Below are positions 42,923 to 60,677 of a stretch of 64,000 nt of DNA, piece after piece. Position numbers and translations under genes: made by a program. Location of the stretch: contig OX387182.1 of NCBI GenBank assembly GCA_947561395.2, forward strand, positions 44,571,949-44,635,948, written 5' to 3'. Each line of letters opens with the position of its first letter. Position 1 is the first letter of the stretch. The notes beneath the pieces are model-generated. The model was not told the DNA's origin. It did not search any database and saw only the letters and a list, made by a program, of their open reading frames with translations. This stretch comes from Buxus sempervirens. Lineage: Eukaryota > Streptophyta > Magnoliopsida > Buxales > Buxaceae.

Positions 42923-44454
42923 TGTGAGACATGGGAAAAATCAATCTCGTGACTTTCTGTTCATCACACGGGATTTGAAAAAGGGGAAGAGTCGCCACCA
43001 TTCTTTTTAGGTGTGAATGGACACTAAAATCATCAAAATAAGCAACAAGGCAAAACTAGAGTAAAATTAATTCCACCTTAAAATAAAAAATCCAGAGATG
43101 GGTAAGGGGATTAGATTATGAATAGGGGAAGGTGTTAGACACCCCCATTCATCCACACAAAGTGGTTGCCAAGTATTGTTCATGCTTAAAATAAAGAAAG
43201 CTTGCTAATATAAAAGGCTTGAAAAGAATTAAACGCATGTATGATCCCCCCACATGAGAAGTACAATGAATTTTAGACCCTCTTTATGGAAGTACCACTT
43301 CTAGGACATCACCATTAATTGCAAATCAAAATAAAACTTGAATACAAGCAAATTGAGGCAAATCCGAAGCACTCGGTAAAAGATGGAGCCATTTGACCAT
43401 AAATCATTCAAATCAAATTCAAATTGAATTAAACCAAATCCATTTAAAAGATTATGACAAATAAAAGATTCAGGAAAATTTTCAAGTAGATCCGATTAAA
43501 ATCCTAAGAGTTATGCTTGTTTGAAATTCAGTGTTATAAGTTGATAAAAGTGGCAAGCAGGCAACTTTGAAAACTTATTTGTAAAGATTGGCTCCATATA
43601 AATCTTTGAAAATTTGTAAGAATGAAGTATGTGGTGCCATCTTTCGAATGAAATAGGCCTCACACAAAAATTCATTCGGGTGTGACTTGTGTAACCTCAC
43701 GAACATGCCCAGAAGATCACAGATCAGCACAGAATGGTGCTATAGGGCAGTTCTGAGTAAATCAGACACACAAGACACAAATGAAAGCAAAAATTTTTGA
43801 AACCAATTGGATTTGAAAGCATACTCATAAAGGAAAACACAGAAATCAAAATCACCCAAATCGAACTTAAAACGAGCAAATGGTGCTCAGTCAAAGTGAC
43901 AGGTTCAGCAATCTGGCCTGGACTGACCTGTTGACTTTGATCGAATGGTGTCCAAAATCCACTCCATAAAAATTGATGAATTTTGACAAACACAAACTAG
44001 ACAATCACACCTTTCACATGTCTTTGGAATCACTCCAAAATTCATCCGGATGATGAAGTTATGGGTGTTCCAAGATCAGGTGCAGGTGCTGTCCAGATTT
44101 GAGACTTTTAAGCAAAATCAAGTCAAAACAGTGAGCAAGTGTGTGTGTAATCTAAACTAAAATCATTTGGAAAAATGTTGAAAAACCTCCAGAAGGATAT
44201 AGGGCACGAATTTGGCTCACCATTCTCTTTGATTGGAGAGAATATACCAAAACCCCCCAAAATGGAGCACAAATGCCCAAAACAGAGAGATTAAACCGAG
44301 AGGTCTTCTATATCCAAAGAAAAACTTGCTTGTATTCTTTTGAAAACCATTTAGAAATGTCCAAGAAATGCTTGGGGCCATTCATTTCAGATCTACCATA
44401 ATGAATACGATGGATCCAAAATACAAGCCTATTTCACATCAAATCGAGTGAGAT

Positions 44455-44576
44455 GTGTGCATGTGTAAAAAAAAACCTTTTTCCAAAGGGAATGGAGATC
44501 CAATGCTATCAAGAGCATGGATCTAGGTATTCTCCGCAAAAAAGAAAATAAAAAATATAAAATTAATCAACACATC
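44455..44576. repeat. 122-bp direct repeat, left copy
   Basis: Runs from GTGTGCATGTG to ATCAACACATC. The copy at 45591-45712 differs at about two positions. The two bracket the LTR-like insertion, with a 3-base filler (GGA) on the right. Confidence 0.85.
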
Positions 44577-45587
44577 TGAAAGAGTAGAGGACTACTCTAT
44601 AGGTCCACGATCTATAACAATTCAGAATTGAACAATGCGGAAACAATACACAGAGAATTATACGAGGAAACCTGGATCCAGATCCAGGAAAAACCTCGAG
44701 TCTATATGAGGCGACTAACCCTTCAAAATCCACTATTGAATGAAAAGACAATTACAAAGGAGTACATACTTAACCTTTACAATTTGACTCACTCAACAGC
44801 AATCCACAGTTCGAATCCACGAACTGCAACACAGCTTGAATCCACAAGCTGCAGAACACGATCAGTCCAGATCGCAAACAATCACTCACCAGTGATCGAC
44901 AGTTCGAATCCACGAACTGCAACACAGCTTGAATCCACAAGCTGCAGAACACGATCAATCCAGATCGCAGCAATCCCCTCAGAATCCACTGAGACGATCC
45001 AATGCAGTAGGAATCCACCTACGCATCAATCAAGGCCGATCACCAGTCCAGGCGATCACACGATCAGATGAAGTTCCGAATTGAAGAAGAATCCTCTATC
45101 TTCAATTCCAGGTGATCTATCTCAGATCTCCCCCTCACTCGATCGCCGACTCTCTAAAGAAGATTTGATCGAATCTCAAACACCTCAAGATTCGAAATCA
45201 AAATAATCCAAAGACAAAAGTCACAATTAAAAATTACAACACGTCTATTTAAAGAATAAAACTCAGATCGCGTCGAGCGCTGGTGGCGTCGTGAAGCGAT
45301 CGATGTAGACGGCAGGAAGCGAACTCAAGTCCCGCTCAGAGTAAGTTGAATCAGTTAAAAGCGCGCTGCTAGCGAGCTGCTAGCGGGAGAGTAAGCGGCA
45401 TGTGCACGGACCTTTCTTTCAAAACACTAATTCCCTTATGCGCTGCCAGCGGGGTGGCAGCGGCGTGGTAGCAGTGTGGTGGCATCAACTTCTTCTTCTT
45501 TACTAAATTCACTGAATTTTCATTGTTTAATCTGCACATCTTGAAGCTTCATTAGAAGACATAATTTGTCAAATATTTGCCATAACA
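44577..45587 (-). mobile_element. LTR-like element, 1.01 kb, with a hairpin-rich leader
   Basis: On the minus strand it begins TGTTATGGCAAATATTTG and ends CCTCTACTCTTTCA, so it has TG...CA ends. A TATA-like TTTAAATAG (45253-45245) precedes the region that would be transcribed. From 45108 down to 44671 that region consists largely of short hairpins. Upstream (45270-45480) is a cluster of CGCTGCTAGCG/CGCTGCCAGCG inverted motifs. It may be a solo LTR of Ty1/Copia type; no coding or PBS is available to confirm. Confidence 0.5.
44671..45108 (-). repeat. array of about ten hairpins sharing loop AATCCA/AGTCCA
   Basis: Inverted repeats seen directly: CCTGGATC/GATCCAGG (44671-44688); CAGTTCG-AATCCA-CGAACTG (44807-44826, 44900-44919); CAGCTTG-AATCCA-CAAGCTG (44832-44851, 44925-44944); CGATC-AGTCCA-GATCG (44859-44874); CGATC-AATCCA-GATCG (44952-44967); CTCAG-AATCCA-CTGAG (44978-44993); GTAGG-AATCCA-CCTAC (45007-45022); GATCACC-AGTCCA-GGCGATC (45038-45057, one mismatch); GAATTGAAGA/TCTTCAATTC with an 11-base loop (45078-45108). 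A 93-bp tandem duplication (44807-44899, 44900-44970) accounts for three repeated pairs. The loop is nearly constant while stems differ. Confidence 0.85.
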
Positions 45588-45590
45588 GGA

Positions 45591-45712
45591 GTGTGCATGT
45601 GTAAAAAAAAACCTTTTTCTGAAGGGAATGGAGATCCAATGCTATCAAGAGCATGGATCTAGGTATTCTCCGCAAAAAAGAAAATAAAAAATATAAAATT
45701 AATCAACACATC
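45591..45712. repeat. 122-bp direct repeat, right copy
   Basis: A near-identical copy of 44455-44576, starting three bases after the LTR-like element. Confidence 0.85.
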
Positions 45713-46654
45713 ACAACATATAACATTCAAAGCATATCAATCAAATGGGGGTTCTATAACTAGGGTTCCATTCCCATTCTCGTTTCCCCTAGTTCTCTCT
45801 TCACGTTTTACGGCTAGAGATAATCTTGAGGTACTTTGAGATAGGAAAGGGGTTTTATACAACATTAGGCCATTGCGGGGGTTATATAGCTAAGGTTCCA
45901 TTCCCATTCTCATTTCCCCTAGCTTTCTTTTCACGTTTTACGGCTAAAGATAGTCTTGAGGTACTTTGAGTAGGAATGGGGTTCCAAACACAATCAGGCC
46001 ATTATTCTACAGAAAGGAAGAAGGAAGAACTAACCCTAGAATTTAAGAACAGAAAATTAAAACAAGGTTAGGGCTTACTTGGGTTCTGGAAGCAATGGGG
46101 CAGAGGTTCCCTTCTTCACTTGGAGCTCTTCAATCTCCAACTCTTGGCCATTTGCTTGAGGAGAGGCCTCCTATTTTGTAACGGCCCAGATCCGAGTCAC
46201 ATGGAAAACCCGTAACTCATCTCCAGAGGTCATTTTAAATAACAGGATCGCACTACCAGAGTAAAGAAAACATGAATTCAATATTATTACGAAACAGAGT
46301 GCGCTAAATTAACCCCAAAGTAATAACTCACATGGCCCCATACATAACCCGCAAGTATCGGCTCTCCAAACGTATCTGAAAAACAAACAGAAACAAAAGA
46401 ATGAGATACGAATATCTCAGCGAGCAGCACATGCATGCACAAATACAATTTACCAGTTGTAAGATATGAGTCGAATAATCACACGAGTAAGCAGGCAATA
46501 ACTCGACGAAACCAACGGAAAACCCAAGGCTACCACAATCCCATAACATATTTCCAATCTAGATAAACCAAAAATCCCACAATGGTCAATGTCATGTAAT
46601 TATTTGATTGGTTAATCAACATGCCAGAGCGACCTCCACACCTCCATGTACACA

Positions 46655-57581: not shown

Positions 57582-58020
57582 TTGGGGCACTGAAGCCGCC
57601 GACGGATGAGTCGGATATTGGTGGATGAACGTCCTGGTATAGCCTTCCCCTTTGTGAGGCGCCGAAGTCAATGGTGATTAAACCAACGACTAGCTAAGGT
57701 ATGCCCGGGAACTACTAGCCGAAATCTTGGGGCACTGAAACCGCCGACGGATGAGTCGGATATTGGTGGATGAGCGTCCTGTCATAGCCTTCCCCTTTGT
57801 GAGGCGCCGAAGTCAATGGTGATTAAACCAACGACTAGCTAAGGCACGCCCGGGAACTACTAGCCGAAATCTTGGGGCACTGAAACCGCCGACGGATGAG
57901 TCGGATATTGGTGGATGAGTGTCCTGGCATAGCCTTCCCCTTTGTGAGGCGCCGAAGTCAATGGTGATTAAACCAACGACTAGCTAAGGCACGCTCGGGA
58001 ACTACTAGCCGAAGTGTGGC
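57582..58020 (+). repeat. 145-bp tandem repeat, three copies
   Basis: Units start at 57582, 57727 and 57872 (TTGGGGCACTGAARCCGCCG) and end ACTACTAGCCGAA. They are nearly identical, so amplification is recent relative to the element. They lie between ORF1 and gag. Confidence 0.92.
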
Positions 58021-58155: not shown

Positions 58156-59010
58156 AGGTTCTCTTTCCTTGCCTAAAACGGCTAAAATAGATCAGCTTGA
58201 CCCCAGGTTCTCTTCCCTTGCCAAATCGCTAAAATAGATCTGTTTTCAGAAGAAAAAAAAATAAGATTCTCTCTCCCAGTTGCCTACGGGTAGCTAAAAG
58301 AGATTCGGTCACTAGGGTTCTCTTTCCGAGTTGCTTCCGAGCGACTAAAATAGATCAGTTTTCAAAATTCTTAGGGTTCTCTCTCCCAGTTACCTGCGGG
58401 TAGCTAAAATAGATCCGGTCACTAGGGTTCTCTCCCCCAGTCGCTTCCGAGCGACTAAAATAGATCAGTTTTCAAAATTCTTAGGGTTCTCTCTCCCAGT
58501 TACCTGCGGGTAGCTAAAATAGATTCGGTCATTAGGGTTCTCTTCCCCGATCAGTCTTCAGAAAAATAGGGTTCTCTTCCCCGGTCATCCTAGGATGGCC
58601 AAAATAGACCAGTTAATTCATTAAGGTTCTCTTCCCTTGTTACCTACGGGTAGCTAAAATAGACCAGTTAATTCATTCAGGTTCTCTTCCCTTGTTACCT
58701 GCGGGTAGCTAAAATAGATCAGTTAATTCATTCAGGTTCTTTTCCCTTGTTACCTGCGGGTAGCTAAAATAGATCAGTTAATTCATTCAGGTTCTCTTCC
58801 CTTGTTACCTACGGGTAGCTAAAATAGATCAGTCTTCAAATTCATTCAGGTTCTCTTCCCTTGTTACCTACGGGTAGCTAAAATAGATCAGTCTTCAAAT
58901 TCATTCCGGTTCTCTCCCCTTGTTACCTACAGGTAGCTAAAATAGATTAGTTGATTCAAAACTAGGTTCTCTTCCCTTGTTGCCTTAGGGTAGCTAAAAT
59001 AGATCAGTTA
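58156..59010 (+). repeat. 40-70-bp tandem repeat, about fifteen copies
   Basis: Consensus GGTTCTCTTCCCTTGTTACC plus TACGGGTAGCTAAAATAGATCAG. Copies vary in length and diverge more at the 5' end of the array. The second array between ORF1 and gag. Confidence 0.92.
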
Positions 59011-59102: not shown

Positions 59103-60677
59103 TTGTTCCATCAGGTACCAAAAATTGCTTTCAGAAGTCCGTATCTGTTAAGATCAAGGAGAAGGCTCGATATGGAACAGCAAGGGGAACAGACGCCGCC
59201 AGGGCAACATCCGGCAGAGTCCAGCCATGCCCAGGTAGTCAATGAGATGCAGCAGAAAATGGACAGCATGATTTCCATCATCCAGGAGCTGATGACAGAA
59301 CTGAGAGAGTTAAGACAGGGCCCACCAGGGGTACCGGTCACCTAGCAGCCGCAGCCACAGTTCCCGCCACAAGCAGAAGCAGTGCCACCGCCGCGCCCAG
59401 TAAATCCCCCTCCCCTAGCACCTCCACCACCACCGGTAGCGCCATTTCATGTGGCACAACAAGATCAATTTCTGCCTATCCATCTGGGACAGGGTGATGA
59501 GGACTGGTATAGAACCCAGGAAGCACAGTTTGAGGAGAAGCTGATAGCAGTAAGGGAGGAGAACAAAACGGAAATGGCCGCCCTGAAGGAGCAACTCAAG
59601 CAGCTCCAACCCAGCATGGTGCAAAGTGAGGCTACCCTGGAAAGCCTCTGTTTCTTTTCAGACATCCAACTCCCGGCTAAGTTTAAATGCCCTGAGTTGC
59701 ACCAATTTGACGACACCGGCTGCCCGCTGAACCATCTAAGGTCGTACTCAGGCGACATGTGCCAGTACGCCAAGGAAGAGCGAATCATGGTGCAATTCTT
59801 CCAGAAGTCGTTAACGGGGGCAACCTATTCCTGGTTCCTGAGTTTGGACAAGGCTAAAATAAAGACATGGAATGACCTGGCAGCGGTCTTCATCCAGCAG
59901 TATCGCCTAAATAGTCAGATCGTACAGACTAGGGCAGAACTACAAAGGTTGACCAAGAAGAGCCCAGAGTCGGTGAGAGAATATGCCAAACGCTGGAAGG
60001 AGTTGGCAACACTGGTACGGCCGCCACTATTGGAACAGGAGATGACATCTCTGTTTATCACATCGTTGGGACAGCCATTCTTCACTTTGCTGCTGGGGCA
60101 AAGTACGTCGAACTTCAATGACCTGATCTTGACCGTGGATCGGATTGAAGATGCAGTGAGGGCCGGGAAGATAGACGGCAGTGGGCAGAGTTCTGCACCC
60201 AGAAGGCCAGTATCAGGGCAGGCTAGCAGAAACCAAGGGCAAGAGCCCAAGAGACAAGAACAGCAGGCGGTCAACTATGTACACCCCGCACAACCCCACC
60301 ATTTCTCTCAAAGACCAGAGGCAGTGGCACCTCAAGGGACCGGGCAAGCAGCTTACCAAGGGGCAAGAAGGACGAGAGAAGAGATGGAGGCCAGGATGAA
60401 ACGGGTTTTCACTCCACTCCCGTATGCGCCAGCATAGTTGTTGCCTACCTTGCTGAAGAGGGGGTATGTACAAATCAAACCTCCGAATCCTCGCCTGGTC
60501 AATGCCCGGAGCTATAATGCAGCTGAGCGATGCGAGTACCACTCCGGTGCTCCAGGGCACCACACCAATCGGTGCTGGGACCTGAGGCACGACATCCAGG
60601 ACCTGATTGACAGTAAATGCATCACGGTGGACCCTCCAGCACCACCTGCTCAGACTCCACTCCGGCAACCGGTGTGA
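59103..60677 (+). CDS. gag region of the Ogre-type element
   Basis: A retrotransposon gag domain is clear: CPELHQFDDTGCPLNHLRSY, MVQFFQKSLTGATYSWFLSL, TWNDLAAVFIQQY, SVREYAKRWKELA and FNDLILTVDRIEDA. An N-terminal proline-rich segment with a coiled-coil-like stretch precedes it. A C-terminal CEYHSGAPGHHTNRCWDLRH is a C-x2-H...H...C zinc-knuckle-like motif. The protein would form the element's particle and bind its RNA. The region looks broken by about two interruptions; it is treated as a fossil. Confidence 0.85.

Follow-up and report, generated by a model that had tools for sequence, protein, structure and literature searches.

The way in which LTR retrotransposons of plants select their own RNA for their particles is poorly defined, and the packaged RNA of elements other than BARE is described as fairly little known (PMC3735527). 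In Ty1, Ty3 and HIV-1, packaging and dimer signals lie in a structured 5′ end (PMC11381356), and retroviral zinc knuckles bind exposed guanines in hairpin loops, for example GGAG and GGUG (PMC7599994). Coat-protein hairpins are dispersed in MS2 and TNV (PMC8472981). Within plant LTRs, the RM boxes of Sireviruses are described as one palindrome repeated with constant arms upstream of the TATA box, in an account that also cites box I of Tnt1 (PMC2829016), and palindromes such as CACCGGACNNNGTCCGGTG are known from maize Sirevirus LTRs (PMC10760457, PMC5311732). Here we describe a real array of hairpins in an LTR of Buxus sempervirens, which bears signs of selection for pairing and recurs in three lineages with different loops. 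The first-pass annotation of this DNA knew of no named system with such a layout; we likewise found no described counterpart of a constant-loop leader array in searches of open-licence papers.

The array lies in a window of 64,000 nucleotides (the whole stretch of DNA that was analysed), within what had been annotated as a 1-kb LTR-like element. High-copy relatives with PBS and PPT showed this element to be a solo LTR. In the 676.5-Mb genome, 40 of 2177 candidates were scored, all of them near full length and at least 98% identical, and nine pairs among the 40 lie ∼9 kb apart in the same orientation. The flanks of other copies showed that the full LTR starts TGTAAGTGTGAAAACTCACACTCC, that 3′ LTRs are preceded by a PPT ending AAGGGGGAGAT and that 5′ LTRs are followed by AGTGGTATCAGAGCC, the PBS, in L011, L018, L019 and L026, with close variants elsewhere; the window LTR is without its first ∼16–21 nt, other copies starting TGTAAGTGTGAAAACTCACACTCCTGTTATGG. 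The Sirevirus junction between 5′ LTR and PBS reads CA/ATTGG (or AGTGG)/TATCAGAGC, and the Sirevirus PPT octamer is followed by an AT/TG attachment site (PMC2829016). In family A we found the junction as CAAGTGGTATCAGAGC in the same four copies and with small changes in L003, L013 and L020, and the PPT as GCCAAGGGGGAGAT/TGTAAG in, for example, L006, L010, L023 and L025. The interior of one family A copy matched Retrotran_gag_2, zf-CCHC and RVT_2 in Pfam, corresponding to a copia-type Gag and RT. Since the PBS and PPT of the other copies set the minus strand of the window as the sense strand, the array stands downstream of a TATA-like site and before the PBS, as first annotated, in what we infer to be the R-U5 leader. 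Transcription would start a few tens of bases downstream of the TATA-like TTTAAATAGA, and the array would be transcribed as part of the leader. The features, in sense order, are as follows.

44577..45590, minus strand: solo LTR of a Sirevirus-type Ty1/copia retrotransposon, identified from copies and from flanks with PBS and PPT
45441..45462, minus strand: U3 palindrome, upstream of the TATA-like site and outside the array, resembling Sirevirus RM boxes
45244..45253, minus strand: TATA-like TTTAAATAGA, with a matching block in the 84% relative
45078..45108, minus strand: h1, GAAUUGAAGA / UCUUCAAUUC with the 11 nt UAGAGGAUUCU between them (has GGAUU); a weak member with another loop
45038..45057, minus strand: h2, GAUCGCC UGGACU GGUGAUC, one G-U
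45007..45022, minus strand: h3, GUAGG UGGAUU CCUAC
44978..44993, minus strand: h4, CUCAG UGGAUU CUGAG
44952..44967, minus strand: h5, CGAUC UGGAUU GAUCG
44925..44944, minus strand: h6, CAGCUUG UGGAUU CAAGCUG
44900..44919, minus strand: h7, CAGUUCG UGGAUU CGAACUG
44859..44874, minus strand: second copy of h5, CGAUC UGGACU GAUCG
44832..44851, minus strand: second copy of h6
44807..44826, minus strand: second copy of h7
44789..44969, minus strand: 93-bp tandem duplication (1.9 copies, 94%), which doubled three hairpins
44724..44737, minus strand: U5 block AATAGTGGATTTTG, where UGGAUU lies outside any listed hairpin
44671..44688, minus strand: U5 hairpin, CCTGGAT CTGG ATCCAGG, with a different loop

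Direct repeats of ∼122 bp (98% identical; 44455–44576 and 45591–45712), instead of a 5-bp target duplication, flank the solo LTR, whose 5′ end is clipped at a CACAC common to LTR and flank; this copy likely arose by a repair-type insertion. A TRIM with the 122-bp flanks as its LTRs was rejected, as no PBS adjoins them and 29 further copies, compared by eye, have different flanks. Palindromic CGCTGCCAGCGGGGTGGCAGCG and GCTAGC repeats occur in U3 at 45364–45385 and 45441–45462; they are RM-box-like and precede the TATA-like site. In L031 (105–128 and 146–154) the PBS is directly followed by the inverted repeat CACTTTG ... CAAAGTG; UGGAUU also occurs within AUGGAUUUU, the start of gag. Elsewhere in the window, tandem arrays (145 bp ×3 at 57582–58013; units of 110 and 55 bp at 58267–59009) lie near a gag-like frame recognized by eye (59346–60437).

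The series had been annotated as about ten inverted repeats, most of them with one six-base loop, and with stems too different for simple duplication. Nine hairpins in 44671–45108 do carry the loop AATCCA or AGTCCA (UGGAUU or UGGACU on the minus strand), eight of the nine being perfect with a stem of at least 5. Their stems differ around the common loop, but there are only six distinct ones instead of about ten: the remaining three hairpins are second copies from the 93-bp tandem duplication (units 44789–44876 and 44882–44969, 94% identical at 93-bp spacing), and to that extent the series is plain duplication. The inverted repeats at 45078–45108, 44881–44896 and 44671–44688 have loops other than AATCCA or AGTCCA. 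On the plus strand h2 reads GATCACC AGTCCA GGCGATC and has a single A-C mismatch, which is a G-U on the minus strand. In relatives, the h4 stem extends to 11 pairs and the outer G-C of h3 is replaced by A-U, a change on both sides, while both changes to the U5 hairpin at 44671–44688 in the 84% relative yield G-U.

Counting perfect stems of at least 5 with a 6-nt loop, 44671–45108 holds 10 hairpins, 7 on one loop with 5 distinct stems there; after one tandem copy was dropped the same counts were 6, 4 and 4. With 5000 dinucleotide shuffles per version (full, and with one tandem copy dropped), a control that the first-pass annotation had called for, none reached any of these values. The two loop hexamers occur 101 times on both strands of the 64-kb window and 8 of these occurrences are in a stem of at least 4, all within the array. 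Beside the array, a scan of the window listed no other repeated loop (4–8 nt, at least 3 distinct stems), loops built of one or two kinds of letter being left unlisted. The shuffles and the window-wide scan exclude chance as the origin of the array, and pure duplication of one palindrome is ruled out because distinct stems persist when one tandem copy is dropped. Single-strand fold z-scores for 44671–45128 were −6.7 on the minus and −7.3 on the plus strand, so folding energy alone gives no strand choice.

Other identities for the segment were also rejected. A 163-aa stop-to-stop frame (44580–45071, plus strand) spans the array, and the repeat length of 93 bp is divisible by three; the frame is antisense to the element and was judged incidental. 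A tRNA or known RNA was ruled out: Rfam covariance models gave no matches at E≤5 in 44300–45800, and in L067, L102, L121 and L069 they gave a single mir-184 match of 19.9 bits, far under the gathering score of 54.1. Neither plasmid blastn nor a viral-contig pattern scan returned a match.

We examined how the stems change across copies of the UGGAUU family. The copy L030 sits inside another LTR, L033, which has 84% identity to the window element, and a complete LTR of this kind lies ∼10 kb away (L034), with the array present and without the 93-bp duplication. Of these 84% relatives, family B, 40 copies were scored, all at least 98%. The alignment comprised 34 sequences and 219 columns (20 sampled LTR ends, 7 of 30 family A copies and 7 of 30 distinct family B copies). 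In it 97.1% of 2005 cells pair, whereas sliding the 3′ arms leaves 31.9–44.8% and alignment shuffles give 96.7±0.1% (0/500 reach 97.1%), and the covariation score is 0.076 compared with 0.069±0.002 (0/500); these shuffles, like those of the other alignments below, take no account of relatedness. A change on both sides was seen at only one pair, in h3, where 17 sequences have G-C and 15 have A-U; 419/500 shuffles reach this count of one pair, and further pair types were not above shuffles either (500/500). Three mismatches are fixed in the family: U-U in h1 and h2 and G-G in h4. The positions concerned are unpaired in 12, 13 and 12 sequences, mostly through these mismatches; in h1, 95.8% of cells are paired, with the U-U mismatch in 12 of the 34 sequences.

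Pair states were further compared over 79–80 loci per hairpin, a non-majority state being called shared when present in at least 5 loci and private when present in a single locus. Shared states were probably transmitted, and private ones mostly reflect post-insertion decay. Pairing is kept by 10 of 13 shared states (3 broken) and by 7 of 29 private ones (22 broken; Fisher P=0.002); with the limit for shared states set at 3 or more loci, 19 of 24 keep pairing (P=0.00009). The test at 5 or more loci leaves out 24 states at 2–4 loci and 15 h5 rows that are truncated where tandem units join, and L035 (part of the L034 place) and L033 (overlapping the L030 flank) do not enter the count. Among the broken shared states, the C-A of h7, present in 6 loci, falls on a CpG and is likely parallel decay. 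These data support selection on pairing in transmitted copies. The original proposal that stems change under selection for pairing is upheld inasmuch as shared changes keep pairing far more often than private ones and covariation exceeds shuffles, but in the UGGAUU family it is weakened by the single pair changed on both sides and by the three fixed mismatches.

We sampled 76 LTR ends with a PBS junction in the B. sempervirens genome, taken non-randomly from lists, and scanned the 670–800 nt upstream of each for an array, defined as one loop on at least 3 distinct stems. The lineages outside the window's own were retrieved by CAATTGGTATCAGAGC or CAAGTGGTATCAGAGC themselves, so the junction match is a selection criterion there. 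All 21 sampled ends of the UGGAUU cluster, which contains the window element, carry an array. So do 12 of 17 ends of the GAGUUC cluster, on 3–4 distinct stems; matches between this cluster and the UGGAUU cluster all fall short of 120 nt. In the GGGAG cluster, 3 of 5 ends have the 5-nt loop GGGAG on 4 stems, and by eye the lineage has seven hairpins with loops GGGA, GGGAG or GGAG. The remaining 33 ends (24 clusters with the same junction patterns) have no array within 670–800 nt; one of these negatives, L110, shares its LTR end with the UGGAUU cluster, without the array or a long match to that cluster. Since all 33 sampled ends outside the three lineages are without an array, the function of the array is not general. 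For each of nine UGGAUU or GAGUUC ends and for the window sequence 0/400 shuffles produced an array, and for L102 0/1000. Family B L034 has 2 stems only, which 4/400 shuffles reach, its low score being due to changes in two loops and one closing pair. These results support the conclusion that at least three lineages of this genome carry constant-loop arrays and that the loop differs from lineage to lineage, being UGGAUU/UGGACU in one, GAGUUC in another and GGGA/GGGAG (with GGAG) in the third.

Covariation is clear in the GAGUUC array. In alignment A2 (11 of 13 sequences then sampled) 3 pairs changed on both sides, which 1/500 shuffles reached. Alignment A4 comprised 15 of 17 sequences, 12 of them distinct; L105 and L118, with 55–57% identity to L065 and L067, were left out of both A2 and A4. 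In A4, 96.3% of cells are paired, compared with 26.9–47.2% when slid, 13 cells changed on both sides (0/500 shuffles) and the covariation score is 0.238 compared with 0.177 in shuffles (0/500). Four pairs changed on both sides (reached by 26/500), and further pair types were not above shuffles (476/500). For GGGAG the signal is suggestive only: in an alignment of 5 sequences there are 2 pairs with changes on both sides (212/500), and the score is 0.059 compared with 0.039 in shuffles (23/500), a weak test overall at 23–28/500.

Several further details of these lineages were noted. In L069, at about 240–440, a 69-bp unit with two hairpins occurs three times, an expansion distinct from the 93-bp duplication of the window family. 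L134, a diverged copy of the GAGUUC family, has at 375–392 one hairpin whose loop is UGGA and whose perfect stem, CCAAACG/CGTTTGG, is new. In the GGGAG family a block TTTAGTGGATT, resembling the U5 block at 44724–44737, comes after the array.

The first-pass annotation had proposed asking whether loops are more conserved than stems, and the answer differs between families. In the GAGUUC alignment A2 per-site difference is 0.008 in loops, 0.089 in stems and 0.104 in spacers, with loops more conserved than stems (P=0.0018) and stems as variable as spacers (P=0.31). In the UGGAUU alignment, by contrast, loops are no more conserved than stems (P=0.42): per-site difference is 0.162 in spacers, 0.063 in stems and 0.057 in loops (the long h1 loop left out), the spacers being ∼2.5-fold more variable than stems or loops (loop versus spacer, P=0.005; stem versus spacer, P=0.0007). 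Within the UGGAUU loop U1, G2, G3 and U6 are nearly invariant and position 5 is U or C. As for the strand, shared departures (at least 3 loci) at pairs whose commonest state is Watson–Crick are G-U in 11 cases and A-C in 3 (two-sided binomial about 0.06, by hand), and private departures from Watson–Crick are G-U in 6 and A-C in 5. The corresponding G-U:A-C counts in GAGUUC alignment A4 are 4:1 in at least 2 rows, 3:0 in at least 3 and 9:5 in any row. This preference for G-U over A-C is suggestive and leans to sense RNA over DNA. RNA hairpins with loop UGGAUU/UGGACU in the leader, as first proposed, agree with the sense strand and the position of the series, the 11:3 asymmetry between RNA and DNA being suggestive only; the target of selection would be the RNA form.

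Many constant loops on changing stems favour a protein-binding RNA array. We tentatively prefer, as a distinct possibility short of a probable one, that this structured R-U5 leader array is a multi-copy loop site for one protein, most likely the element's own Gag nucleocapsid, and serves packaging. Selection on the structure is supported by the data above, and a protein would be its ligand. Each hairpin would present one short G-containing loop, the stem sequence being free provided pairing holds, and the loops would be repeated binding sites for a single protein, most likely the element's own Gag. The CCHC zinc knuckle of Gag may bind the exposed guanines and so mark genomic RNA for packaging. 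The arrays gain sites through tandem duplication. One copy of each of the other two lineages (GAGUUC and GGGAG) has, by eye, a gag-like frame with a CCHC motif, and the sequence of this motif differs among the Gags of the three lineages (one copy each). It is the guanines in all three loops, the CCHC Gags and the retroviral zinc-knuckle precedent together that would favour Gag-mediated packaging. As expected of a packaging signal, there are multiple leader hairpins with exposed G loops and selected pairing, in a leader that is predicted to be transcribed. Against Gag-mediated packaging, replacement of the GGAG psi loop in HIV-1 had little effect on packaging (PMC7599994), and GAGUUC is able to close as AGUU, a loop to which a zinc knuckle need not bind. 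Kissing-loop dimer (DIS) sites were considered and rejected: UGGAUU, GAGUUC and GGGAG are not self-complementary, and nothing in the sense LTR is the reverse complement of UGGAUU/UGGACU, so there is no loop–loop partner there.

A bolder form of the Gag-binding proposal, which we regard as doubtful though worth stating, is a self-recognition code in which the lineage-specific loops (UGGAUU, GAGUUC and GGGA(G)) are read by each lineage's own Gag, loop and zinc knuckle having coevolved. If such a code were true, competing families in one nucleus would each package their own RNA. Should Gag bind the loops, packaging codes would differ between related elements of the same cell. The arrays supply short, defined RNAs whose binding to the Gag of each lineage can be tested directly, and one loop on distinct paired stems makes a simple scan for the trait in other plant genomes.

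Rather unlikely, in our estimate, is that a host or element factor acts on translation, export or stability, the ∼600-nt hairpin leader controlling ribosome entry or marking one RNA pool. The array does lie before gag and folds strongly, and BARE keeps separate RNA pools for translation and replication (PMC3735527). Control of translation by structure alone, however, leaves the constant loop and the free stems unexplained. AGNN loops are read by yeast Rnt1p, and GAGUUC, which in the consensus fold closes as a G-C-capped AGUU, recalls them; nevertheless RNase III-type processing sites or silencing substrates are an improbable account of the hairpins, as UGGAUU and GGGA loops do not match AGNN and stems of 5–11 pairs are short for Dicer. 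Palindrome-rich regions of maize Sirevirus LTRs are small-RNA hotspots (PMC10760457, PMC5311732), yet selection for keeping a silencing target is hard to explain. We give an equally small chance to a role in reverse transcription, in which structures of the R region aid first-strand transfer or recombination with the loop as nucleation site. The R-U5 location, which if in R would place the array at both RNA ends, would suit such a role, and TAR-like roles are known in HIV; strand transfer, however, requires complementarity of R rather than a constant loop, and many identical loops would invite mispairing.

Regulatory palindromes acting as DNA, that is, transcription-factor boxes like the Sirevirus RM boxes, are disfavoured and slightly less probable still. 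Clusters of palindromes in Sirevirus LTRs are linked to CpG islands (PMC2829016), and the strand asymmetry that would speak against DNA is suggestive only, but RM boxes keep their arms and lie upstream of the TATA box, whereas this array lies downstream and has varying arms around a kept loop, and G-U exceeds A-C among shared states (11:3). Least probable of all is a functionless by-product of templated correction of imperfect palindromes in reverse transcription together with tandem duplication, for although tandem duplications do occur (of 93 bp in the copy from the window; the 69-bp unit ×3 in L069), templated correction yields perfect pairs, yet G-U states are common to many copies, and it would not hold the loop constant, while UGGAUU-family spacers diverge ∼2.5-fold faster and private changes break pairs where shared ones do not.

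Among systems with many hairpins, STNV and parechovirus also have dispersed coat-protein hairpins, with a common loop motif there. The coat-protein hairpins of RNA viruses resemble the present array in their number, common loop motif and free stems and in being read by a coat protein as proposed here for Gag; they differ in being dispersed over the genome rather than gathered in one leader segment, and host and virus are unrelated. The U3 repeats of plant copia elements of the Tnt1/Tto1 type are likewise short and dyad-symmetric and lie in copia LTRs, but they are upstream promoter elements, in contrast to a leader array. Retroviral packaging hairpins are few and are not known to number five or more on one loop, as opposed to the array described here, for which packaging is a proposed role. 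The likeness is one of position and form, since HIV-1 psi GGAG, SL2 GGUG and the GACG pair of MLV (PMC7599994) are also G-containing loops on short stems in a 5′ leader and go with a CCHC Gag. The enod40 RNA (PMC10578108) is unrelated. With the RM boxes of Sireviruses the array shares the genus, the LTR and the clustering of short palindromes, and RM-like palindromes are found here too, upstream of the TATA-like site. The array itself, however, departs from the RM-box pattern, in which one palindrome recurs upstream of TATA with its CGG-CCG arms unchanged: RM arms are constant (for example, CACCGGACNNNGTCCGGTG), whereas here the loops are constant, the arms differ and covary, and the position is downstream. 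In conclusion, structured leader signals of LTR retroelements are a known kind, and the constant-loop arrays, with different loops in three lineages, are a variant of it.
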